A stretch of 26,775 bases of DNA from Ectocarpus siliculosus (lineage: Eukaryota > Sar > Phaeophyceae > Ectocarpales > Ectocarpaceae). Below, in pieces: positions 25 to 26,596 of the stretch. Within the stretch, counting starts at the first letter, position 1; each line of letters begins with the position of its first letter. The translations under genes were made by a program, and so were the position numbers. Under the pieces are notes generated by a model, which did no database searches, was not told the origin of the DNA, and saw nothing but the letters and a program-made list of their open reading frames with translations. The stretch spans positions 602,290 through 629,064 of the forward strand of contig FN649003.1 of the NCBI GenBank assembly GCA_000310025.1, written 5' to 3'.

Positions 25-3000
25 CTATCCGCATGTTATTTCATTGCGCTTTTGGAGTCTGAGTCCTACCAGGCGGTCGGTGTAACCGTCCATGGGAGGC
101 TTCTCCAACAGGGCCGATGCCACGTCGTCCGAGTGTAGCAGTAGACACGCCAAGAAGGCTGGCAGGGTGGCTCGCTCCCCCAGTCCCCCCCTTCGCACCG
201 CCTCCTCGGTGGATCTGACGTCGATGTATCTGGTATGGTGATCATCCATCCATGGTGTTATGGATGGAGGGAGGCAGGCGGACACGCGCGCGCGTGTGTA
301 TGTGTGTGTGTGTGAAAGAAGGTGCAGGGGTGCACATTACTGTGGATGGACTCAGATGCGCCGGAGGGGTATCATGCGTGGTCAGGCCGTAAAAACCATG
401 CTTGCTTCCACGCGTACCTGTAACGTGATGGTTGACCAGAACTGAGTACACCCAACGTCGTGTGGTCGGCCTCATACGGTTCTTTCGACCTGGATAAGCC
501 GCTCTTGAACCCTACCTGAGTACGGCATCTCCCGAAGCACCCAAGTAGGACGCCGTAGCAAGGGTGTCTCCCCGAAGCAGAAACTCAGCTATTTAGACTA
601 CACGCGAGCGAGTGCTTCGATTCTCTGCCAACCCACCCAACCAAACCTTTCATGAGTTCAAGAACGTTTTTAGCCTCGGCACCAGGAACCAGAACCTAAC
701 TTGCAACACCCAGGCAAGACTACCATCTCTACCCTCCATCCCTGTGCCGCGCACGTCTACCACACGCAATATTACTACGCAATCCCCGGCGAAATAGACG
801 TTTTGGGTCACGACAAAGATCAACTTGGTGCCCACCGGGGCGGGGCGGAGTACTGGGGCGGTTGGAGGGAGTTTGGATGCACTTCTGATGTCACACGGCA
901 CAGCTGCTGCCCGACGAGGCTCTGTAGGCGCTATCATCATAGTAGTGCACCTTGAGAAGCTGTTGTACCGACTGCGTCATGCTACAACGACACTTTCATC
1001 CGTGACTCGGACATCTTGAACATCCCAGCAATACTGATCCGGTCTCAACAGATAGCATACGAGGCATGTCCTACTGCGGGGTGTGGTGTATATTGTACCT
1101 CAAGTGGTTCCGCGGCTCCGCTTTCATGACCTGGAGCTGGTCTAAGAGTATTCGGAGGTTGACCTCCCGCGCGGCTCTCTCTTTCGTGCCGCCGTCTCCC
1201 CTGCCTCCCGCGAAGCTGCTGATGCTCCTGCGCCTGTCCGACCTGAACGCTAAGGAGCCGAAGAGCGTGTGTATGTCCTCAAAGAACTCCTGCCCGATCG
1301 AACGCGGTGCGGTGTCGATTGCACGATTTTGGCCGCGCAGAGGATACGATCTTATTGAAGGATGGGCCTCGGTCGTGAATACTACCATGTTCGGGCTACT
1401 AGATGGTACGGATCTACGAGATTTCGGGGGTTACGTGGATGCTTGTGTGTGGCGGCAGGGAAGTTCGGCGGCAGGGCCCCCGGCAGGGCACCTCGCTCTC
1501 CCCGTGTGCTCTCTAATTCTGTCAAATACATATCAAGGTCCTGGGGTCAACATTTGTTCTGCGCTTCTGACAGTGAACTGTCCGCCTCCAAGCATACGAT
1601 ATGTGGCGTGCGGACCAAACCCAGCCCAGAAGCTTTTTCAAAACAAAGAAGAACGTTCCATCAATGCAAAATAGGGTTGCGTTTTATACACTTGGTCTAG
1701 TACAAACCTTGGTATAGCATAACGACAAGCGTCAATGGAAAGGAGTCCCCGAGCCTCCCTATACTCATGTTCTCCTACGAAAAGCTTGTGGGAGACCGAA
1801 GACAATAGTGGGGATTTCACGACCTCCTTCTTCGCCACAGCACCACAAAGTGGGGCCCCACAAAGAGCACTACTAGCAGACCTATACCTGGAAGCAAAAG
1901 TAGACGATGCACGCGCGAAGGAACACTGCGAAGGGAAGCGACTTCACACCGTCGGCTTCTTGGGTGGGGGCATCGGCGACAGCGCCGGCATCATCAGCCC
2001 CAGACGGCGTGATCCTGCAATTGTTGTCGCTGCGAACCCCAACCGTTGTCGGGGAGGCTACTGCTGCTGCTGCTGCTGCTGCCCCTGATACCTCCGATTT
2101 CGCTGATGGTATGGGCGATGCCCCCGTTCCGGGAGGGCTGCGGACATACCTTGATCCCTCGGACAGGATTCTGGCCACCTGTGTTGACACAGAGCAACAT
2201 GGCCCAGAAAATGTTCGCACAGACAGGAAAAACGGTCGGTGTGCAGCAAGTTTTGTTCGACCCAATACCTAACCTATTGCCTCTTAGTCGTTGCCACCCT
2301 TAAAGAGTCTACGGTATCATGCTGCGTGTCTCCGCGTGTGCTCTTTGTCCTCGATTCACCTGCCACGCATTATGGCAAGAGAAAAAAACACCCACCCGGA
2401 CCACAATCTCCTCCGGAAAGTCTTGACAGACAAGTCCGAAAAGATGAACGACATCCTTCTGCTCGAACCCACCCCCGTCGGCACCGGCCGTTGTGACATT
2501 GCCGGGCTCACCGAACATCTGTTGTACGGTAAGGGACACAGACGGCAATGTTCGTAGCTTTAAACAGCGCGTTGCCGGCTTGGAACGTGGCCAAAGTGCG
2601 CGCATGCTAAACCGAGACAGAAGCTTCTCCCGCCCGAGCCCTAATAGACAAGTTTCAGCAGGGGATACGAGTCCGGCATAAATATTTATCTTCCAAATCC
2701 AAACTTGTGTGAGGCTTTGGTATTCGCTGAGCGTTAAACCTCACCCTAGCAGAATACGGGGAGATATTCCTGCCTTGTTTTGCTTAGAAGATCATGTTTG
2801 ATTCGCCCAACTTCGGGTAGGAAAGAGGAGGGGGGGGAGTGTGAAGTATAGTATCGACGAATGCTAGCAATTATTTGTAACCTAAAGCGCCGGAGCACAT
2901 TTAAATGTCAACGTTTTCCCCTTTGATGACTAATAATCCGACAATGAAACTCGATATTTATATTGTAAGTAACTTGGACACATTTTTACGCCACCTCATG

Positions 3001-3754
3001 TACGGCGCGCACGAAGGCCCGGCGGTTGCGCGTGGTGGCATTGACGTAGGCATACTCCCTCCCAACCACGTTGTCTTGACTCAGCACGCTTGTTTTCATT
3101 GCCGTTGGTGGATGGGGTTTTAAGCAGCGACCAGGCGACGGGAGCGCGACCAGAATCGGCGGTGATGTGATAGTGCGATGGGGCTGGGGACACCCATCTC
3201 ATACATACTTACTATACACTGAGACTGACGTATTTTCATTGGTCAGCCGGTTAGAGCGGTCAATGCTAATAAAAAAATACACACAGCAACCATCAGGGTG
3301 TTTGACCAAGGTTATGTGGCATGACAGCACATAATGTGGACCCTGTAAAACAGGATACGTGATTTTACTATGAACGTCCGGTACCTCTCCAAATAGTCGT
3401 GAATGAGGTCCAGGGGTTTCTCAGGTCGGGCGGCAAGCACAAGTCGAAGGGCGTCCTCGACGTACACCTTGAGTTCGGGGTTCTCTGGGAAAGATTCGAA
3501 CGAGCGTGAGGAGCGAAGACGGCTGGAAATATATTCTCCATGAGTTACAGTATGTGGGGACCAAAGAGCGTCCTACGATGAACAAAACAGATTACGCTGA
3601 GAGCATAGCCCAAGCCTCTTGTGTTGTTCTGTCAACCATGCGTCCTGCGACCGGTCTACATTGGGCAAGCCTTGCTGCTCAGATCGAACAACACCACACA
3701 TGAAAATTTCCTTATTTCCACACCTAAAAAATCTTGAGCTGTGATCCCATCCAT
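25..3754 (-). CDS. TPGS1: Tubulin polyglutamylase complex subunit 1-like protein (8 exons)
   Basis: Spliced minus-strand gene. Exons in transcript order: 3754-3724, 3484-3385, 3088-2995, 2518-2396, 2178-2150, 2014-1888, 1289-1099, 229-25. Phases match at every junction, giving about 299 residues; from memory, human TPGS1 is about 290. The N-terminus reads QDFL followed by an RIIa/DPY30-like helix pair (LRLVLAARPEKPLDLIHDYLE), the expected TPGS1 start. Next come RRAFVRAVHE, then GGGFEQKDVVHLFGLVCQDFPEE, then SLPFAVFLRACIVYF joined to EFFEDIHTLFGSL; these follow the order of conserved TPGS1 blocks. In animals TPGS1 is a non-catalytic subunit that helps target the TTLL1 polyglutamylase to axonemes, basal bodies and centrioles. 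The exon 3 acceptor (3088 or 3079) and exon 6 acceptor (2014 or 2029) are ambiguous but in frame. The exon 5 of 29 nt is unusually small. The stop at 25-27 may be bypassed if a donor near 73 is used, so the C-terminus is tentative. Identity is from motif order by eye; another RIIa-domain axonemal protein is the alternative. Confidence 0.72.
230..1098 (-). other. Last intron of the TPGS1-like gene
   Basis: The donor is GTACAA after TTGAG and the acceptor is CCAG before the last exon. Phase 2 is kept, giving an Arg codon across the join. Apart from the dinucleotide tract nothing else was recognised here. Confidence 0.7.
284..314. repeat. CG/TG dinucleotide tract
   Basis: Alternating CG then TG repeats, with one TA interruption. 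It lies just upstream (in transcript sense) of the last TPGS1-like exon, inside the intron 230-1098. Confidence 0.9.
2061..2082. repeat. (CTG)7 trinucleotide tract
   Basis: On the gene's strand this is (CAG/GCA)n, just upstream of TPGS1-like exon 6. In one frame it would encode poly-Ala, but the phase of the 29-nt exon requires an acceptor downstream of it, so it is read as intronic. Its CAGs are potential decoy acceptors. Confidence 0.85.
3233..3257. repeat. Copy 1 of a 25-nt dispersed motif
   Basis: This copy matches 19156-19180 in the same orientation with two mismatches (core TTTTCATTGG, then CAGCCGGTTAG). It lies in a TPGS1-like intron. The GGTTAGAGC part resembles a tRNA D-arm / A box, so a tRNA-derived element is possible. 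Confidence 0.4.
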
Positions 3755-3756
3755 GG
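3751..3756. promoter_or_regulatory. CCATGG palindrome holding both proposed start codons
   Basis: The plus-strand ATG (3753-3755) opens MAAESAALVPN and runs to a GTAAGT donor at 3787. The minus-strand ATG (3754-3752) opens MDGITAQDFL and runs to a GT donor at 3723. Each ATG has G at +4 and C at -1. If both are used, the promoters must lie inside the partner's first exon or intron and the transcripts overlap. Confidence 0.4.
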
Positions 3757-6700
3757 CAGCGGAGTCTGCGGCGTTGGTGCCAAACGGTAAGTCTGGAGGT
3801 GGGATGCAGTGCGCCATGTGTCGCAGCGGAGTGATGGACGGAGTGATGGAGGTCTAGCCTCAGTAACACGTGAGAATACAGATTTCGCGCGGAGCGAGAG
3901 GACCACAGGAGTGCTGTGAGATATATATGACAGTGTGAAGGACCTACCACTGAGAGATTGAGCTGAGGGATGCTATGTAACATGCCAACTCAAACTGCCA
4001 ACTGCCAACTGCCAACTCAATCCAGGTTCCAGGTCAGCCCGATCCCACGAACCGGCAAGGGTTATCCCGCATCCGGGCTGACGTTTCAATTTTAATTCCA
4101 CCGCATGCTGTTCCCCGTTCCCTGTGCGGCACGCGGCACGCGGCGCGCGCTGCCGTTTGTTGTTCCATCTCAGACACGGGCACTTAGGCCTAGCTTGACA
4201 ACCACTACCCAATTGGAAGGAAGAAGGGGGTTAGTCTTTGGTTGCTCGACGAGCACCGCGTGTCCGAATATCGAACCTCGGGGAGTCCGGGACGGACGGG
4301 ACTGTACGCGATTTGATTGAGAATCGTGCCCGCAGGCAGCTGAGGGACCAATACTACACCAGTAGGGCAGCTGGCCAGTTGATCGGCAGCATGAGCTATG
4401 TTGGAGTTCCCACCGTTCCAAGAGACTCGACCATTGCATCCTCCATGATCGTGCAAGACTACATATCGAAGCGCTTCCGAGGAGAGAAACCCATTTCGCG
4501 AAGGTACGATAACCAACCAACCTTGTACATTTATTTCAGGTTCTTTCGCCGGCTACAATGAATGTAGGCTACATGTACAGAGGTTGTTCTCGTACAATAT
4601 CGTATCGGTGTATCGGCTGGGTTTGATGCTGTGCCACGTGTCGAATATTTCGATGTTACGGGTACATTCCGTTGCCTCTTATTTCGAGGCTGGCGGTGTG
4701 ATGGCTACGAGGTCGTCACCTACCCTATAGACTATATATAGTCTAAGAGAGGACGCGGCCACGGTTACTACTACTGCTGTACCCTCGATTAAATAAGAGC
4801 TCCGTCACAAGCTAATTGTTAACCTGCGTATGCGCAAAATATTGGGTTCCAATATCTCTATGGCATGGGATATTGCGCTATCACATTTTTTTTACTAGAG
4901 TTAACAATATCGCGATGGTGGCACGCGGTACCGACCGCCAACAACCTGTTTGACAATACCATACCCGTGCAAACAATCGTTTCTTTAGATCCCTTCAGAA
5001 ATGTGTGCAAGGAGAGTTGAAGTTTCCACAGCCTCTTCACCCAAGGGTACAATGGTTTTCCGGTCATTTCGGTTCATTTTAGCTCTGAGTGACTTGCGAC
5101 CTTTGAGGTAAACTCGCTCCCGGCCCTACCTAGCTAGCTGTTGGGTCCCTCCTCCCTTCAAATGCTCCAACTTTTCCGACGCGGTGTGCTGATATGATTG
5201 TTAAAATGCAGCATTCTACAGCAGCACCGGCCCGCACAAGGGCGACGTGCTGGATAAAGAGCGCCGTAAGGATACAAGTATATCCTACCGAAAGTGTGTG
5301 TGTACGCTAAATTTTACGATGGTTTCGTTGGTAATTCGTGCCGATATCTCCTATGGTGCTTGTTACCCGATACTTACGGTGTGTCTTCCAACTTTTTCGA
5401 GTAAGCACCGAACCCCACTACTTACTGAACTTTATGTCAATCTTGCTGCAGCTTGACCTCCACTTGTCGGCGGGAAGGCTTGAACAACAGGCGGCGAGTT
5501 GCTGCCATTCGTGTATGCTGACACAAAAAAAAACGCAAATCATCAATCCTCGTGCGCGTGTGGCACCGCAGGCACATGCCCAAGGGAGTGGATTCCTGCT
5601 TCGGGAATTTTCCGATGCAGTACAAGACGAAGGACGCCTGGGACGGAAACCCGACTCTGCGCCGCGACTCCCGAACCTCTTACACATCCCCGCAGCGGTC
5701 CCCCACCAAGACCCGCCGGCCAAAGGGTTCGGTGAGAGGAAGAAGGTTGCTTGCGAGCAAAAGAGATGGGAGTTGAAGAGCGTCGAAGCTGTCTCTACAG
5801 CCGAGAAGGCGAAAAGACCTGCGTCGCGGAGAATACAATCGACGGTGTTGTCTTTGGGATTGTTATGTGTTGGAAAGAGAAAAGAGTGTGCAAGCTCCGT
5901 GCATGGTGGTCGGGTGGTTGTGACAACACCCGTCAGAACGGCCTTAAGCGCCAGCGTCTGGGAGACCAGATGCTTTGGATTTAATTGGGCTTCAAACGTG
6001 AGGGGGGGAACACCGTCCAAAACACGACGACCTGTGGATCTACCCCGGGGGCAACACTGCTACCCGTATTCCACCGCAACGAGAAGTATTGAAGGGGGGC
6101 ACAAACATCATCCTGACGGAATAGATGCTCAACCGGGTGGTTCATTGGGTCAAAAGACACTTTTCCCTGTGAACCTCTCAATCGAACTCTCCTGCTCATC
6201 TTGCCGAAGCTTTCTCTCTCTATTGCTCGATGTTTATTGTGTGACTTCTCGGCCAGCCACATCTGTCTCTAAACCCAGCCCACCCAACGGTACCCTCCTT
6301 CGCTGCTAGACACGGCCGGAAATTGACCCCGGCCGTCCGCCCCCAACCTCCCTGCAATTAATTATGTTCTTCTCCGTGCTGCATTAGGATGTGAGAGAGA
6401 AGTCGGGAGTCATCCCGGGGGTCGGTGCCCGCCCTGCCACCGCCGGCTCGTACCGCCGATCAAGCACCTACTCCGGAAGCAGCGAAGTCGGCCGCTCCGG
6501 GTTGGCAGCAAGCGGGGCTCCGCGGATGGAGCCGGCGACGCGCGGGAGGGGGTTGGGTGGGGGTACCGGTGGTGGTGGTGGGGCCAGGCCCAAGTCTGCG
6601 TCGATGTCTCGGTCCCGGCCCTTCCTGGAAGTCCACGGGTCGTCCACGGTATAAAATATGGTTTTCGGACTATTAACAGTTTATTTGAGTAGAACCTTTT

Positions 6701-9700
6701 CAAGGGTAAAACGCTGCTATTTAGTCCTAGGGCGGTTGAGAAGTGTTCACTATCTAGTCCGAGGGAGGTTGAGTAATGTTTTTTATTTCGGCCTTTTGGC
6801 ATAGGGCTGCCGTCTATATGTCTACTCACGGCAAGTTGGCGGTCGCCTTAGTGAGGTCTTTTGGGGAGTGGAGGCGTGCTTTCCAACGTGAGGATACGTG
6901 TTGTGTGTCCGTTCAGATAACCCCGGCCTGTTTCGTGGGCACGGTTTATTCATGGAATGGACACCTCTTTGAACAAGAAAATAACGATGACTTGGACAGA
7001 GGATATTGGTGAGAGATATATTGAGGTCCGGACGTCCATGTCAACAACCTGCTGCAAAACCAATATTATATTTTGTACAACAGAGCTGGTTTGGCACGAC
7101 ACAGGCGGGGGGGGGTCTGCTCTTAACCCCACGGGTAACCTGTCGACCTAGTCACCACCAAACCTGGGTGCTATTAACAATCTTGTGGCCTTCCTGCACG
7201 CGCACATGTCGTTTGCCTCAAACGGCGTTCGGCGCACACCCACCGCGCGCCGTCACGGCCCCCATGGGAACAGAGGCAGCAGCAGCAGCAGCAGCAGCAG
7301 CGAGACCCGGGGGGGGAGACGCGGACAGCAGAACGGCGAGGAGAAGGGGGGGTGCCGTCACTGGCATCAACGGAAAAAGGCAGAAAGGCGACGAGGGTCA
7401 GGCCTAAGACGGCGGGGGCGAGGCCGACTTCGCGAGGTCGGAAGGGAGGGGGGGTCGTACTTGAGGATCTCCCGGACCGCCAGGAATTAGAGGTGCGTCC
7501 GATTCACGAATCTTCCACGCGTATGGTCCACGTTTTTGCTTGTATCATGCGTGCTCCCGGTTGTGGTGTGTCAATCATATAATCCGGAGTACAACGTGTA
7601 GGTTGGCTCCCAGAATGTGTAGGTTGGACGAAACCAAGCTGCGCACATCACGCGAGGTTTCGGAGCTCCTGTGTCGACCCATCCATCCAACGTGAGCGTA
7701 AAAGCTTTTTAGTTTCGTCTGGTGAATCAACGACAAGGAAGAAGAATGTGGCTGTCGGAGTCGATCCCGACGGCATTGGGCGCCTTCTTCTTCGCTGGCA
7801 TTGCTGCATGGTATGAAAGGGCACAGCACGGTCAACACGTCGGTTAGAAATAACGAATTCGACGAAACAAATGGGGGATAGGAGATGTTGCAAACAAACG
7901 CGTCGCTGGTATCTCTTTTGCTTTGGTGGGTGCATGCAGGACGGATGTCAGAAGAAGGAAAAGGAGAAGAAGAAACAGGACAAGGCAACAGAAGAAAAAA
8001 AGGAAAGGGAAAAGTATAAGGAACGGAAACGGACAAACGGACAAACGGACAAACGGACAAGGAAGTAAGCGCAATATCATCACTACCAGAGTACATACAA
8101 GAGACAACACAAATCGTTCGCTAAAAAACGCATCTCGCGTGCAACAGGCGACGCGAACGTACCTGCTGACCCAAGGCAAGTTCCGCATCACCCCGTCGAA
8201 GCTCATGGCCAGTCTAGAGGCGGCGAGGGCCACCAACAGCAGGCCTCTCAGCGCACCGGCTAGCGTCCGTCGACGCCGCGCCCCCGCCCCCCCCAAAGCC
8301 GGTGAGAATGTGGTCAGTGAAGATGTACATATACGCTTTTTCTATTCAAGGGTTTTACTGACAGGGTGCGTGTTTTGTTACTCGTACCATCGACCGCGCC
8401 AGCCGGCTGACCGATGAAAAAGACGTCGATCTCAGTGTGGTTGAAAACACATAATGCTTGTAGAGGCCATGGTCTGGGACCCCGTGGGGGGGCGTCGTGA
8501 TTGTGTGCGTTCATGTGGGTGTTTGGTCGCTTCCTCGCCCCCGAACCCCCGAATATTAACTACTGTAGGAACAAGCCAATCCAGAGGAAGGCGACCTGTA
8601 GCGCTGTGAATCCTTGTTTTTGTGTCCCGTCCGGTGGACTGGACAGAGCACGACCCTTTCGCCGCGATACTGTTCATCCCCAATCATGCGGTGTCGGTTG
8701 GTGCGTTGGCACGTTTCTCTCTCTATTCCTTGTTATCGTTGGCGTTGGTACTGCTTTGATGTTGTGGTCGCGGTTACCGCTGCCGTTTCCTGTGGCGACA
8801 TATATGTATGTTGCTCTTGCTGTTGATGTTGATGGTGACTTGCCCGTTGTTGGTGTTGCTGCTGTTGTTATTGACGATGATGGTGATGAGAAGTGTTTGT
8901 TGTTGCTTGCTGCTACTGGTGCCGGTCTGTTCTACCGGCCGTTATTCCATCGTTGATCGTCGTTTCACGAACAGTATTTGCCGGCCCATCACCAAACACT
9001 CAGCAGGAACACGAGGCCCAAAACTGCCGTTGATAACCGTCGGCGCGTTTTTGTTGTCTTTTTTTCCCAACCACTAAACAGGCGCGTGGCGTCGGCGGGC
9101 AATAGCCGCAACGCTCTTCCGCAAGTACTACGTGAGGGGGGACCTCCCGATCAGCGTGGACCACTGCGGACACCGGAACGCAATCCGTTGGAAGATCCGA
9201 CCCGCCGACCTCGACTTCCACGTCTACCTGCCCATATTCTTCGATGGTTTGAGAGAGGCAAGCTATTTTAAGTGGGGATTCTTTCCTTAAGAGTTCGTGG
9301 GTTTCTTTGACTGTTTAGAGACTGACTGGTCGTCCAGGACGCGTCTCGGAGTACGCTATAGGCGAGAATGGTACATCAACGACCCCAAACTTCTGCCTGC
9401 CTCGTGCAATCTGCTACCATCCCCTGGACCGTTTGGACAACGGCTGGACACGAATAATATGCATTAGACGCCGAAGTTCCGAAATCAATCTCCACGTGGT
9501 GTCCATTGCCTATTCGTTTAGACCACCACCGACCTGAGAAATCCAATCAAACCCCATGACCGAGAATAGAAGAGGGAGACACGAAACCTCCGAGGAAACT
9601 CGATTCTTTCTCGACATATCGTTATCGTTCTTCCGACAGGTCTGGTCACGTCTTGCTGTTTGGTATGTATGTACGTGTGCTCGAGGCAGGTGGAAGACCC

Positions 9701-9843
9701 GTACCGTTTCCTCGCGGTCCAGGGGACTGTGGACATGATCGAGGGTGCTCCGGACAAGGTCCTCCCCGTCATCCCGCAGGTTCGTGGCTGTTGAGGGTTG
9801 CGGATGCCTGTGGTGGTTGTAAGTCGCTGTTGTGGTAGATGCT

Positions 9844-9879
<36 letters not shown>

Positions 9880-12772
9880 ACTGTTGCTGTTGTTGCTTTT
9901 GTTGTTTGTTTTTCAGCTGCCGATTAGCGCTGATATCCAAGGCGAGCACTCTTTCACCCCGAAGGCCCTCCCGGCCTCTCGCCCTCCCACACAACACGAC
10001 CACAAGATTTCATGACATAACAACAGTCTTGTGCCCCCCCCCCCCCCCCNNNNNNNNNNNNNNNNNNNNNNNNNNNNNNNNNNNNNNNNNNNNNNNNNNN
10101 NNNNNNNNNNNNNNNNNNNNNNNNNNNNNNNNNNNNNNNNNNNNNNNNNAAAGATGGGGACACTTTTTTTTTTTTTGAAAAAAAAAAGAGGGCCCAAAGA
10201 AAGGGAAAAAACCCTACCTTTTTTCTCCGGTCCAGGGGAATTGGAAAAAAATTAAGGGGTTTCCCGAAAAAATTTTCCCCCTTTTTCCCAAAATTTTTGG
10301 GTTTTAAAGGTTGGGGAACCCCTGGGGGGTTTAAAAATCCCTTTTTGGAAAAAAAAAAATTTTTTTTTTGTTTTTTTTTTTTTTTTTTTTTAAAATTTGG
10401 GTTTTTTTTTTTTTTTTTTTTTTTTTTAAGCCGCGATAAAGGGGTAAAAAAAAAGGGAAAATTTTTTTCCCCCAAAAGGCCCCCCGGGTTTTTTCCCTTC
10501 CCAAAAAAAAAAACAAAAAATTTTTAAAAAAAAAAAAAATTTTTTGCCCCCCCCCCCCCCCCCCCCCCCCGCCGCCGTGCGTACACGGCCCCCCGTTGCC
10601 CCCCTCCCCTTGCTGGTCTTCCCTTCTTTTTTTGCCTCTTCTTGGCGGGACACCCGCGTCTCGTGGGGATCTGACGTCCCGCCGAACACACCAATGTCCA
10701 TATGGACACACGTGCTGAATTTGCCGCGTACGATGGGAACGGTGCTCATGGCGCTTGGCGTGCGCAACGCTGGCATGCCCGGTGTTTACTGGCGTTTGCT
10801 CCCATGCACGGGAATTGGGTGCCTGGCGTTCATGACCATGTGTGTCATGCGTGGCACTACTACACCACAAAAATCCACACAAACGATAACAACAAATTGG
10901 GCACAAAAACGTGCTGCTCCTTCTCGAAAAATGCATGTAACTACACATGTACGCATGAAATCTGCATGCAACTACGTGTAAAAAAATACGCATGTTCGAA
11001 TTCATCATTAGCTCATTTTGCCCATGAAGACCGCCCTCAACACGAGGGAGCCCCGCATCATCTGCCCGACTCTCAAGATCCTCCAGCAGATGATTCTGCT
11101 GAGCCCCATGATCGGCCAGGCGCTGGTGCCGTACTACCGACAGGTACGTGCCTCCCGATTCGTTTTCGCGTGAGCATTGTTTGTTGTTTGCTCCTTGCCA
11201 CGGTTCTCAGGTACATATAGTTATTTCCTGCTGCCTAAGGATGATGGGCAGCATGCTTGCCTTGCCATTTATACCGCGTATTTTTGCCTGCTTGATAAAA
11301 AAAAATTATGTCGAATGTTTTTTGGTGGACGTGTCTGGGACAAAGATATGTATGTGCATCTCGTCCCCTCCTAGTCGGCTTGTTTGCCTAGTCTCCGCCA
11401 TGTCGGCGTTGCCTCGTACACACTGCGACCTCCTCTCCTGTTTCTCAGCTTGCAACCGGCGTGTGTAACTGTACAGGGCAGTTTGGTTGCTTTTCCCGGG
11501 GGGGGGCGGGAGGTACTGGGTGAGGTGGGCTGAACAGCTGCTGTAGTATGGGGCCCACTAGTAGTATGGAAAGCGATGAAGACCTGGCGAGAGGCGTGGT
11601 GGTTAGGAGGGAAACGGGGGGGGGGGGGGGGGAAACCCCCCAACCAAGGGGAAAAACGGGGTTTGTTTCTGGCCCGGAAATGAACAAAGTCCGCAACAAT
11701 GGCAAAAAAAATGAAAAAAGACAATGTCCAAACTCTTCTAGCCCGGACCGCCCCGCTATTCCTCCGAAGCTTCTTCCTGGGGATAGTGGTCGGCGAGCAA
11801 ACGATAAACCTCTCACGAACTGAATAATGTACCAAGCGCACCACCAACCCTTGACGGTTTTTTTCTTTCGTTTTCCGTTTTGTGTCTGCTGTTGGCGATG
11901 ATGCGTTGTAGCTCCTTCCGATGTTCAACCTGTTCCGCGGGATGAACAGCAACATGGGAGACGCCATCGACTACAACCAGCGTTCCAGGATCAACGTTGG
12001 AAAACTCATCATGGAGACCCTCGAGGTGATGGTAAACACGACAAGGTAGTTTTGTTTCTTCGAGCACCTTCACCACGCCATCTGTACCACTGCAGTGCTG
12101 TGCTGTATCGTGTCGTACTCTTGGTGTGTGAAGCAAAGAATGTGTGATGCACCCCGCATAAGCCTCCCTCTTTTTTTTTCTGTCTTGGTGGGGCTGGCCG
12201 CAGGTGATGGAGCAGTTTGGAGGGCCCGACGCCTTCATCAACATCAAGTACATGATTCCAACGTGAGTGCGGTGTTTTGCACAAGGTGGAGGAAAGTTGA
12301 ACCCCACAAGGATAAAGCTGTTTCTTGCATATACTGGGTCAGAATCCTCCACCCGCGCGCACGCACACGCTGCACTTCATTTGCCAGCAATCCCTTCTGT
12401 TGCTGTCGCTCGCAGTTATTCATAGTTTCAGATTCCCATGTACCCTCCGCTCTCCCCGCCGTTCTTATCTGAAGTGCTTCTTCGATCCGAGGTTCAAACG
12501 TTGTCATTGCTCTGCGAAGCCGCTTCATCCTGCACCACCCTAGATGGGCTTCCCTCCTCCACACCGTGAAATTTAGCGAGAAGAACACCGATCGATCCAC
12601 CACACAACTTGTGCTGTAACCACGGGTTGTACGACATCAACACTCCATTGCCACTTTTTCCACCCTTCGTGGGACAGTCCCGAGGGAAACCTAGAAAAGT
12701 CGACTCTGACCGTCGGGTCGTGCTCTCCGCCCTCCGTGTCCAATGTGTAGGTACGAGAGCTGCGGGCCCTGA
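3753..12772 (+). CDS. PACRG: PACRG-family axonemal protein with long N-terminal extension (about 13 exons)
   Basis: Proposed exons: 3753-3786, 4254-4503, 5222-5293 (or 5265), 5572-5731, 6388-6648, 7274-7492, 8148-8301, 9082-9257, 9690-9779, 11012-11143, 11912-12025, 12204-12262, 12751-12772. The product is about 580 residues. The last six exons (about 197 residues) are unmistakably PACRG: FRKYYVRGDLPI, YLPIFFDGLRE, PYRFLAVQG, LILPMKTALNTREP, IGQALVPYYRQ, LPMFNLFRGMN, GDAIDYNQR, DAFINIKYMIPTYESCGP. PACRG lies at the inner junction of axonemal doublet microtubules, where it helps join the A and B tubules. The roughly 380-residue N-terminal part is basic, Pro/Ser/Ala/Arg-rich and probably disordered, with a Gln-8 run and repeated RPx[ST]A motifs. 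The exon 8 donor is GC (9258). Junctions from exon 4 onward are phase-consistent. The join of exon 3 to exon 4 is unresolved: the best donor (5266, GTAAGG) gives the wrong phase and the 5294 donor is weaker. The first exon rests on a perfect GTAAGT donor and phase only. One intron holds an assembly gap. Confidence 0.93.
3995..4017. repeat. CTGCCAA tandem repeat, three copies
   Basis: Three perfect 7-bp units plus a partial one, inside proposed PACRG intron 1 and upstream of the TPGS1-like start. Confidence 0.85.
4728..4745. repeat. 18-bp perfect palindrome in a PACRG intron
   Basis: TAGACTATATATAGTCTA is fully self-complementary. It lies in the intron after the 4254-4503 exon and has no assigned role. 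Confidence 0.8.
7277..7300 (+). repeat. (CAG)8 at the start of a PACRG exon
   Basis: The repeat encodes a Gln-8 run immediately after the predicted acceptor (exon begins at 7274). Every unit ends in AG and keeps frame, so in-frame acceptor slippage is possible. Confidence 0.8.
8029..8060. repeat. ACGGACAA tandem repeat, four copies
   Basis: Four perfect 8-bp units in the PACRG intron 7493-8147, within an A/G-rich stretch. Confidence 0.9.
8740..8935. repeat. TTG/CTG-rich degenerate repeat region
   Basis: Loosely repeated GTT, GCT and GAT triplets in the PACRG intron 8302-9081. Open frames here are low-complexity Leu/Val/Cys runs and not credible exons. Confidence 0.6.
9258..9263 (+). other. 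GC splice donor (GCAAGC) of PACRG exon 8
   Basis: The exon ends LRE (GAG) at 9257 and the next exon starts GTG at 9690. Only a GC donor here gives a continuous PACRG reading (FFDGLRE then VEDPYRFL) in phase 0. Flanking AG before and AAG after fit the consensus of GC-AG introns. Confidence 0.75.
9845..9912. repeat. (TTG)n microsatellite
   Basis: About twelve perfect TTG units, then a degenerate tail, in the PACRG intron 9780-11011. Confidence 0.9.
10050..10149. other. Assembly gap of exactly 100 N
   Basis: One hundred N bases flanked by a C homopolymer (10034-10049). A length of exactly 100 suggests a placeholder for unknown size. It sits inside PACRG intron 9780-11011, so no coding sequence of that gene need be lost. 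Confidence 0.97.
10150..10570. other. Degraded homopolymer-rich sequence next to the gap
   Basis: Nearly every base occurs in runs of 2 to about 20 identical letters. The texture differs abruptly from both sides and ends in a C run (about 10546-10570). It looks like low-quality read ends assembled next to the gap, not biology. Poly-Lys/Phe/Pro frames here are artefacts. Confidence 0.75.
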
Positions 12773-14880: not shown

Positions 14881-16107
14881 ATGCGACGAGCGAGACGGAG
14901 GTGCTGGTCCGTCGCCCTAGCCCTCCTGCTAACGTACGCCGTCGTCAGCACCGTCCTTTTCTTGCGGCCTCCGCTCCACCCGGTCGGCCCCTCCACCAAA
15001 CCCAGCACCACCATCTCCGGCAACCAGCGGACACGACAGCAACCCAGGCTCCGATCGGCTTCGGGGGCCGACTCGATCGTCTTCGTTGCCCTGGGCCCCG
15101 CGGCGCGGTCGGCCTCGCTGCTGTACGCCCTGACGTCGCTTAGAGAGGAGGGAGGCTGGGACGGCCAGGTGCACGTGGTCGTTGAGCGCGAGGATGACCT
15201 GGCCTGCCTCTCGTCGTACCTTCGCCAGTCCGTCACGGCCATCGCTATCGCACCGCCGCCGCCGCCGCCCTCACCCGGCGGTAGTCTTCATTCCGGTGGC
15301 GGGGACACGAGAGGGGTGGTGCAGAACGCCAAGATGGCGAAGATGAAGCTCCTGGACCTACTTCCGCCCTCGGTGGAGCGCGTGGTGTACGTGGACTGCG
15401 ACGTCGTCACCCAGCGGCCTCTCGGGCCTTTCCTCGACGCCGTCGCCCGCGAGTGGGACGAGCTGGACAGAAAAGCGGCAGCGGCAGCGGCAGCGGCGAC
15501 AGCTGCGGTGGGAGGGCCAGCGACAACCAGGCCGCCGCCGAAAAAAGGAGTAGTGAACTCACGCTTGCGAGGAGGGCGTGATGATGGCGACGAGGTATTT
15601 GCTCCTCCTCCTCAGCCGATGAGCGGCGACGGTGACACCAACCGACGGCCGCCGCCGCCGCCGCCGCCACCGCCGTCAACAGTGATGATCTTCGCGGACG
15701 CGGGCGGGCACACGGTCCCCGTTTGCCGGGGCTGCGACCGGGCACACTCGGGGGTGGTGGCCCTGGCGCGTGGGCACTCCGAGCGGTGCCTGAAGCTTTG
15801 GCACGACGCTTTCGAGGGAGACGGCGCGGGAAACGGGGGCACGTCCACGGACCAAGAAGCGCTGGACGCGGCGCTCGGGGAGGGGTCGGGCTGCGAGGCG
15901 ATCATGATGGGACGGTGGCACCTCTCGTTCATGAAGGACGCGTTTGTCATGGCCGGGCTGACGAGGACGAGCACGTTCGGCCACTACACGGGGCTGCTTC
16001 ACCCGAAGACCCTGGGCAAGGTCTACCGGAGGTTTTACGAGTGGGCCCTTGGGATGAGCTTCGAGGAGTGGGGGCAAGGGGAGATCCAGGGCTGCGCGGT
16101 CGAGTGA
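14881..16107 (+). CDS. Type II membrane glycosyltransferase, GT8-like, intronless
   Basis: 408-residue ORF from the first in-frame ATG to TGA. The N-terminus MRRARRRCW and a hydrophobic segment at about residues 8-28 form a signal anchor, placing the catalytic part in the Golgi or ER lumen. VVYVDCDVV gives a DxD metal and nucleotide-sugar motif (D172, D174). AHSGVVAL (about 288-295) and STDQEAL (about 322-328), then a RWHLSF block, follow the layout of GT8-type nucleotide-sugar transferases, where a small-residue SG motif and a DQ motif follow the DxD. Three low-complexity insertions interrupt the fold: poly-Pro near residue 125, poly-Ala near 200 and poly-Pro near 258. Having no introns is unusual beside its neighbours and may mean retroposition or transfer. 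Donor and acceptor sugars cannot be told; GT77 or another GT-A family is the alternative. Confidence 0.78.
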   Translation: MRRARRRCWSVALALLLTYAVVSTVLFLRPPLHPVGPSTKPSTTISGNQRTRQQPRLRSASGADSIVFVALGPAARSASLLYALTSLREEGGWDGQVHVVVEREDDLACLSSYLRQSVTAIAIAPPPPPPSPGGSLHSGGGDTRGVVQNAKMAKMKLLDLLPPSVERVVYVDCDVVTQRPLGPFLDAVAREWDELDRKAAAAAAAATAAVGGPATTRPPPKKGVVNSRLRGGRDDGDEVFAPPPQPMSGDGDTNRRPPPPPPPPPSTVMIFADAGGHTVPVCRGCDRAHSGVVALARGHSERCLKLWHDAFEGDGAGNGGTSTDQEALDAALGEGSGCEAIMMGRWHLSFMKDAFVMAGLTRTSTFGHYTGLLHPKTLGKVYRRFYEWALGMSFEEWGQGEIQGCAVE

Positions 16108-24115: not shown

Positions 24116-26596
24116 ATGGCAGTAGCGTCAGACCACCAGCAGCAGCGCGTTGTGTTCTACAGCGGGTCCTTCTTCAAGATCGACGGCGTGACCCTAACTC
24201 TGAGGGGCTTGATCTCGCACATCACCAACGAGCGCGGGGCAGACGTGCTCGTCCTCACCGCAGACAACCCGTCAGACGCCGCCATATCCGACTTCACGAG
24301 GAGCGCCAACAACGGCGGCGGCGGGCTCGTGCGCGTCCTCCGCGTGGGCGGTGGGCCTGTGCCCGCCCCTGGAGCCGACTACTCGCTGGGGCTTCGGGTG
24401 CCCGAATCCACCAAGAGGGCGCTGGAGGTTTTCCGCCCCACCGCCGTGCACGTCACGAACCCTGATCTGGTAGCTCTGTGGGTGAGTTGGCGAGAGTAGG
24501 ATATGCATGTAACCTTCGCCTGGAGACTGTTGCTTCGACATCGATATCTTGGGGCTACAAAAAACATGAATTGCTTCGGTTTGCTGTTGTCGAATTTTGT
24601 GTGTGGGAATGGGGAAGATCTAATTGTTCTTTTCATATCTTTTGACAGTGAGTGCCGACGAAATAAAGCATGGCGATGAGGCAGAGGGGGCGATAAGACA
24701 ACTTCAAGGATAATAGTCGGTCTGTGCATGCAGTGGGGCAGAGCACGCAGATCTACTTCCAAGTGTGTGTCCGTTCGGTGCTACACGATCAATCGTCGTT
24801 TGAACAAAAATTGAGAATGCACATAAAACGACGTACGGACCACAATTGTTATTGTTCTTTTCGCCCTCCACGTGCGTGCGTGTGCGTGGTAAAATATAAA
24901 TGCTCGTCGCCGTCCCCACGCTTTGCGAGCTCTCTTTCGCCATCGGCGAGAACGAAAACGCCAGGGCAACCCATTTAACGATGTAAATTATTCCTGTAGG
25001 CCTGAGTGCGGTGGCGGGGGGCGAACAAATAAAATATTCCGTCACACGAATTATGTACACCGCACTGGGACTACTTGCGTTTGAAGTAGAAACGGCCTCC
25101 AAAAGCGTGACACGTGCGTGCGGAAGCGTGTCTTCGCCTCTGGCTTTTCCTCTCCGTTAGTCGAGATGTCCTGCGCCCCCCCCGGCCACCCCCTCCACCA
25201 CTGACACGCAAACGCGGCACGCATGGCAAAGCTAACGTATGGCGCCTACAACTCTGATCGTTGTCCACGGCGACGTTAGTTATCTCATATTTTTTTTGTT
25301 GTGCAGCCAGTGCCCCACCTTGTTGGACGATGTACAATAGAACAATTACTTCTGCGCGTTCCCACAATTGTTTATGTATGATATGTAGGCAACAACATGC
25401 TGTACAATAATAATCAGGCTCATCTCCCGCGCGCTGAAGAAAAATGCACCTCTGCGTGATCGTAACGTATTTCACAATCAGCTCATCAATTGGGTCCTCC
25501 GGGAGAGGGAGGACTGCGGCGTAATGGCCACGCTCCACACGGACTTCATGGAGATTGTCAACTCCTACTGCATTGTCGGGTGAGTCCGCTGAAGAAACGA
25601 ACGTTCAAGTTGTCGATCTGAATGGATGGAACACCGACGCCTCGAGAGCACGTTTCGCAGCCCTTTTCTACTCCGCCTCTCTGCTGGTCCGTGTACGCAC
25701 ATACATAACCAATGCCAGGAAGAGAATAGATCGACGAAGGATACGCGTCTTTCTACTCAGGACGGAACCGCACAGAGGGTGTACGTACGCGTTTGTGTCG
25801 ACGTCGGACGATGTATTGTGTCTTCGCATTTACAGGCCGTCGGGATGGTTCTGCCTAACTATTAGCATAAACCCTGAATCCGTGACCGCCTCGCCCGCCC
25901 GCCCGCCCGCCCGCCCGCCCGCCCGCCCGCCCGCCCGCCCGCCCGCCCGCCCGCTCGCCCGCTCGCCCGCCCGGTGTACGTGTCTGTCTGTGTTTGGGAG
26001 TGCAGCCGAACGCAGGCGCTGTGGGCGCTGTCATCGTTCCTGCGCCACGTGTACGGGCTATGCCCTTCAGTCTACGCGCCGGTGAGGGATAACACGTAGA
26101 TACGCAGTTGATCGCGGCTGGTTTTCGTCTGTTCTTTGGTGCTGACGGTGTTGAAGTTGTTGTGGGTCAATGCAGCTTTCGAAAACAAACAACAGTGACA
26201 GTAGTAGTGTGACCGGATCGTGTTCTCAAAGGATAGGTCTGTTTATCTGCTTGTATATGTGTTCATGTCCTGCTACTTTCGCAACGTACTAGCTTACCAG
26301 TCGGTGCCTCTTCGTGTTCTACCCTCCCCCCATGGTCCAACGTCGTTTCGTTTGCTTCACGCTCTGTGGACACTGCTGTCGACTCGACTCAGACGGAGTT
26401 CATGCGGCGAAAAGTCCAGGCGGAAGGGTGGGACACAGAGCTGGGCGTGTGGGGGCGGGGCGTCGACCCCGAGCTCTTCTCCCCCGCCAGGCGCTGCCAA
26501 GACCTCCGGCGGCAGCTAGGGCTAGACCCCGATGACGTCGCCGCCCTGTGGCTCGGGAGGGTGGTTCAAGAAAAGAAGCCGGGAGTGTGGCTCCGG
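24116..26596 (+). CDS. GT4-type glycosyltransferase, N-terminal half, runs off the window (4 exons seen)
   Basis: Exons 24116-24481, 25482-25579, 26006-26081 and 26393-26596 join in phase and give about 248 residues; the last donor (GTGCGT at 26597) leads outside. The start ATG has a good context (CATCATGGC) and opens MAVASDHQQQRVVFYSG. The sequence then shows the N-terminal Rossmann domain of retaining GT4 enzymes: FFKIDGVTLTLRGL, RGADVLVLTADNP, FRPTAVHVTNPDL, ATLHTDFME, a WALSSFLRHVYG stretch, then WGRGVDPELFSPARR and ALWLGRVVQEKKP, the linker into the UDP-sugar-binding domain. The WGRGVD...F.P and LGR..EK pattern is shared with SQD2-like sulfoquinovosyl and mannosyl transferases. No signal peptide or membrane span is seen. 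Donor and acceptor cannot be assigned because the C-terminal half is missing. Confidence 0.87.
25892..25973. repeat. (CCCG)n tetranucleotide tract
   Basis: About 80 bp of CCCG units with a few CTCG variants, in the GT4 intron 25580-26005, ending about 30 nt before the acceptor. In any frame it would encode Ala-Arg-Pro repeats, which are not real. Confidence 0.93.

Follow-up and report, generated by a model that had tools for sequence, protein, structure and literature searches.

Divergent gene pairs are common in the brown alga Ectocarpus. The published chromatin survey reports that 61.7% of genes flanking TSS-adjacent intergenic regions lie in divergent pairs, with a median spacing of 409 bp and a common nucleosome-depleted region below about 600 bp; in close pairs the chromatin is shared and transcript levels are uncorrelated (PMC7784034). 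The mammalian PACRG gene is described as sharing a bidirectional promoter with Parkin, the two start sites being separated by about 200 bp (PMC5951884). A human study lists 582 coding pairs with 5' overlap in one sample or more, the overlap depending on the start site used (PMC8076222); the term "start codon" is absent from the main text of that study. A narrow literature search on overlapping start codons of divergent genes found neither start-codon phrase, and among the matches listed there was no paper title on a PACRG/TPGS1-like pair.

Here we describe a locus of Ectocarpus siliculosus within a 26,775-nucleotide stretch of intron-rich DNA (the window), to which all positions refer. A first-pass annotation, made from the letters alone, had placed a TPGS1-like gene on the minus strand head to head with PACRG on the plus strand, and our analysis supports this arrangement. 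The two genes probably form a compact divergent pair whose 5' exons touch or overlap.

Materials and methods

Splice-site scores were taken from a generic matrix, not trained on this organism, on which the ten accepted plus-strand acceptors score just -6.0 to 2.7. Coding potential was scored with a codon model trained on 15 segments of the window, the majority being exons that are predicted, not proven. Scores are given as the number of open background windows that score as high; these windows overlap one another, so the counts are not independent tests.

Results

Identity of the two genes

The plus-strand gene had been called PACRG, and database searches upheld the name: on these matches it is certainly PACRG, and certainly a flagellar gene. 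Its core (9082-12772) has a best PDB match of 1e-74, with 16 distinct sequences at 0.001 or below, and it matches Pfam ParcG (PF10274) at 7.3e-69 over profile positions 1-183 of 183, i.e., the full domain, at a level that makes it a member of the family. The exon chain from 3753 to 12772 (Table 1) forms one open frame of 578 residues whose only stop is the terminal one; begun at 4391, the chain has 521 residues. The upstream exons, beginning at 4254, 5222, 5572, 6388, 7280 and 8148, were picked by frame and join the core in phase. Because donor 6648 (17% of GTs score as high) and acceptor 7280 (72% of AGs as high) are weak links, a separate gene upstream of the core is conceivable. The N-terminal stretch of 172 residues, about the first third, gave no Pfam match up to E 10, and the 12 PDB matches of the N-terminal region all had E 0.33 or worse and were taken as chance. 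No relative was found for a 64-residue piece of PACRG in viral contigs (4 pattern matches) or for the 195-residue core in prokaryote genomes (67 pattern matches), collections that are poor for eukaryotes and silent on conservation.

Several features of the PACRG region are recorded in their own right. Intron 9258-9689 has a GC-AG boundary (GAG/GCAAGC ... GGCAG/G). By eye, the N-terminal exons (5573-8300) contain the recurring short motifs RPATA, RPKSA, RPKTA and RPLSA. A candidate exon at 9917 (LPISADIQ) was dropped, and 11012, which continues PACRG, was preferred. Within a PACRG intron, 100 N (10050-10149) precede some 400 bases of implausible sequence rich in homopolymers, and the region 10050-10560 looks like an assembly fault.

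Table 1. Coordinates of the proposed and alternative features of the two genes (a slash marks an exon boundary)
Feature	Position	Strand	Details
PACRG core exons	9082-9257 (GC donor), 9690-9779, 11012-11143, 11912-12025, 12204-12262, 12751-12772 with stop	+	PDB, Pfam, open frame
PACRG N-terminal exons, predicted, phases consistent	5222-5293, 5572-5731, 6388-6648, 7280-7492, 8148-8301	+	
PACRG exon 2, first-pass version	4254-4503	+	GAG acceptor, AAG/GTACGA donor
Proposed PACRG first coding exon MAAESAALVPN/G, or end of non-coding leader exon	3753-3786	+	donor CG/GTAAGT
Alternative untranslated leader	4174-4390	+	after acceptor CTCAG/ACACGG, first ATG at 4391
Alternative PACRG start codon	4391-4393	+	GGCAGCATGA, A at -3; in frame with rest of gene
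Proposed first coding exon of TPGS1-like gene, MDGITAQDFL, phase 1	3724-3754	-	donor TAG/GTGTGG; GCCATGG start context
Alternative in-frame minus start codon	3815-3817	-	adds MAHCIPPPDLPFGTNAADSAA
Alternative minus first exon	3948-3983	-	MLHSIPQLNLSV, donor 3.1, for acceptor 3572
Exon 2 of the TPGS1-like gene, with both helices (I and II) and the RPEKP loop of the docking/dimerization motif	3385-3484	-	acceptor 3484 or, extended, 3572
Tentative further exon of minus gene	2397-2606	-	contains FEQKDVVHLFGLVCQDFPEEIVV; inferred bounds

The minus-strand gene is likely TPGS1 and probably a flagellar gene as well; its protein presumably resembles human TPGS1. As judged from its residues, it carries a docking/dimerization motif of the PKA-R kind. 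Read together with the junction codon, exon 2 (3484-3385) encodes ENPELKVYVEDALRLVLAARPEKPLDLIHDYLE, which aligns weakly with the docking/dimerization domain of PKA RI-alpha (E 0.34 to 0.6). The FL of the proposed first exon aligns without a gap with YV of RI-alpha, an alignment that depends on the exon being right, and the exon-1 residues raise the match by just 0.5 bit (14.0 to 14.5). A hand-joined partial model of the gene had RI-alpha as its sole match in PDB (E 0.6) and no Pfam match up to E 10. Two features mark the R1D2 class, in which TPGS1 is placed with reservations: adjacent aromatic and hydrophobic residues in the N-terminal helix, and a PxxP loop (PMC8339350). RPEKP in exon 2 is this loop. 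For TPGS1 itself the same source names two marks, helix I having a glycine and helix II a YF (PMC8339350); by eye both are absent here, ENPELKV being without glycine and DYLE having YL, not YF. The gene is therefore called TPGS1-like only.

Elsewhere in the window, a long ORF without introns extends over 14881-16107 and weakly matches glycosyl transferase family 8 (E 0.0032), short of the curated cut-off. Also short of the curated cut-off is the match of 24116-24481 to Glyco_trans_4_4 (E 0.00061); this piece appears to be the opening exon of a likely glycosyltransferase gene. An array of CCCG units at 25894-25954 adjoins this glycosyltransferase-like gene.

The CCATGG site

CCATGG at 3751-3756 is a palindrome that holds an ATG on each strand. 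The plus ATG is 3753-3755 and the minus one is read from the complement of 3752-3754, an overlap of 2 bases; this much of the first-pass annotation is borne out by the sequence of both strands. The further claim that the first exons of both genes begin here stands in part. Either ATG opens a short frame that ends at a GT donor in the phase assigned to it, while the sequence allows minus starts at 3754 and at 3817 or 3983, and plus starts at 3753 and at 4391.

How much the palindrome itself contributes can be judged from its frequency. CCATGG is found at 8 places in the window (3751-3756 and seven others) and CATG at 131. Since the two strands of any CATG carry ATGs that overlap, the palindrome lends no further support, and once the start of one strand lies in a CATG the two-base overlap is automatic. 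We scored 130 of the 131 CATG sites, leaving out one beside Ns. At least one strand was open to a donor of at least 2.5 at 24 of them, and both strands were open to such a donor within 120 nt at five, 3751-3756 included; a donor of at least 6.3 on either strand occurred at a single site, namely this one. Open frames on both strands combined with two phase demands are an uncommon coincidence, which speaks for real exon ends and less so for use of the plus ATG.

First exon and start of the minus-strand gene

The exon 3754-3724 (31 nt, phase 1) joined to acceptor 3484 reads MDGITAQDFLENPELKV, which confirms the proposed in-phase passage from MDGITAQDFL to ENPELKV. Scanning first exons of up to 240 nt with an ATG between 5000 and 3560, we found 22 ATG-led phase-1 candidates for acceptor 3484. 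Just two of these end in an aromatic and a hydrophobic residue and so fit the domain; both use donor 3724, and they alone have a donor score of at least 2. An exon carrying QDFL is supported in this way.

The two fitting exons differ in their start, which is either 3754, in GCCATGG, or 3817, with C at -3 and 21 codons longer. Start-context rules derive from other eukaryotes. The choice of 3754, made in the first pass, was not confirmed: the ATG at 3817 lies in frame with no stop between, and exon 3983-3948 joined to 3572 is open too. Upstream of 3817 the next stop is only at 3856, and the 21 added codons score as coding (263 of 7,522 open background windows reach their score), although part of the added stretch lies opposite the proposed plus exon, and antisense sequence of this kind can resemble coding sequence. 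The codon usage of MDGITAQDFL is poor (7,389 of 10,914 as high). Set against the full GCCATGG at 3754, a protein start at 3817 is doubtful; the start codons would then not coincide, and if plus 3753 were used as well, the whole 34-nt plus exon would be antisense to minus coding sequence.

Acceptor 3572 (TAG) scores 5.7 as against 3.2 for 3484 (CAG), which places it in the top 0.87% of AGs, and the frame stays open. Among 31 phase-0 first exons for it, one has a donor of at least 2, namely 3983-3948, whose donor scores 3.1 compared with 2.6 for 3724. With this exon, FP would take the place of the domain's aromatic-hydrophobic pair, contrary to the R1D2 pattern, and we consider it quite improbable that the minus gene uses acceptor 3572 with this or another first exon, in which case CCATGG would be no minus start.

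First exon and start of PACRG

On the plus strand, the exon 3753-3786 comprises 34 nt, has phase 1 and ends CG/GTAAGT, and 4254 completes its last codon. The GTAAGT donor and the phase match to 4254, both part of the original proposal, were verified; donor 3786 is the best of the 3,483 GTs on both strands of the window (6.36, next 6.13). No earlier ATG is available in the frame of ATG 3753, which has a stop (TGA) upstream at 3735. Pairing first exons located between 3000 and 4330 with eleven acceptors between 4235 and 4379 gave 303 phase-compatible combinations, of which 3753-3786 to 4254 ranks first and 3786 to 4371 second, both because of donor 3786. A plus-strand exon very probably ends at 3786, and it follows that PACRG transcripts would begin in or before the region of the minus first exon. 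It could still be that donor 3786 is unused and that the first exon of PACRG lies elsewhere between about 3790 and 4390, so that PACRG could start wholly downstream of 3786. The minus start context would force a plus ATG in any case, and 24 of the 130 CATG sites are open on at least one strand to a donor of at least 2.5; on the other hand, no other combination among the 303 has an equally good donor, and a coincidence of this kind is unlikely.

GTAAGT is a mark of an exon end and says nothing on whether the exon is translated. The use of 4254 as acceptor, as first annotated, was not confirmed: it is a GAG site, in contrast to CAG or TAG in 12 of 12 accepted acceptors (ten plus, two minus; hand-chosen, partly by frame), and 37% of the 2,992 AGs score as high. 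Plus ATG 3753 has T at -3, and in codon score its exon comes out middling (1,282 of 10,546 open background windows reach it). Acceptor 4174 ranks within the best 0.77% of the same AGs and, joined to 3786, leads into a stop. The 217 bases from 4174 to 4390 are without an ATG, which is rare in the background (710 of 11,494 windows of 217 nt), and the ATG that follows has A at -3. These features fit translation from 4391 at least as well: position 3786 would then close a non-coding leader exon joined to 4174, or the leader would be unspliced. Against it, 4256-4390 is open in the frame of the gene and scores as coding (only 11 of 3,269 open background windows as high; rough density ratio 8.9 for coding). 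Codon usage is a blunt tool here, because the piece that is coding in both models, 4391-4501, scores lower (441 of 4,325 windows as high). We lean towards 4391 over 3753, without the choice being firm, and put this reading at slightly short of even chances. If transcripts begin before 3753, the ATG there would head a 15-codon uORF in the spliced form, MAAESAALVPNDTGT. A start at 3753 would give the N-terminal peptide AAESAALVPNAPR and a start at 4391 SYVGVPTVPR.

The yardstick for a divergent pair with a shared promoter is opposite strands with transcription starts under 1 kb apart; depending on the model, the start codons of the pair range from overlapping to 637 bases apart. The exact shared start would use both plus 3753 and minus 3754, giving a two-base overlap of the start codons and placing each 5' UTR inside the partner gene. 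It draws on donor 3786 with its phase match and first rank, on the coding score of 4256-4390 and on GCCATGG at the minus start. It has to accommodate the GAG at 4254, the T at -3 of the plus ATG, the in-frame minus ATG at 3817 and the other possible minus first exon, a strong acceptor 4174 left unused, the middling plus-exon codon score and the fact that overlapping ATGs arise at every CATG. Taken together, this makes it an unlikely reading.

Discussion

The arrangement is most likely an ordinary compact divergent promoter. The TPGS1-like gene would be transcribed leftward and PACRG rightward from one short region, with first exons that touch or overlap at about 3724-3817, and two promoters within one open chromatin region may fire outward. 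CCATGG would provide the minus gene with a strong context for its start (GCCATGG), and the palindrome would give a plus ATG whether used or not. The site is a reminder that a palindromic start context yields an ATG on both strands by construction.

It is also unlikely that two axonemal genes rest on one six-base start site, where each start codon would be fixed by the other, each 5' UTR would be antisense to the first exon of the partner and a change of either start would alter both. Were this so, one mutation within the six bases would change where two proteins start, evolution could hardly part the genes, and the pair would serve to test whether co-expression is enforced by overlapping 5' ends. 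If the genes are a close divergent pair, which is more likely, the locus is a further instance of a layout common in Ectocarpus.

The locus resembles the Ectocarpus divergent pairs in that adjacent genes lie close together on opposite strands; the difference is that the survey reports spacing between annotated genes, whereas here the first exons may touch or overlap (PMC7784034). The first-pass annotation spoke of a "locked" pair, implying co-regulation; the close divergent pairs of Ectocarpus are reported to share chromatin but to be uncorrelated in transcript level (PMC7784034). In mammals as here, PACRG stands head to head with another gene, but the partner here is TPGS1-like and not Parkin, and common ancestry of the two arrangements is not implied (PMC5951884). 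The human 5'-overlapping pairs share with the pair proposed here the head-to-head sense-antisense overlap of two coding genes, and they differ in that the overlap described there varies with the start site used (PMC8076222). The layout is thus of a known kind, in which co-regulation should not be assumed.
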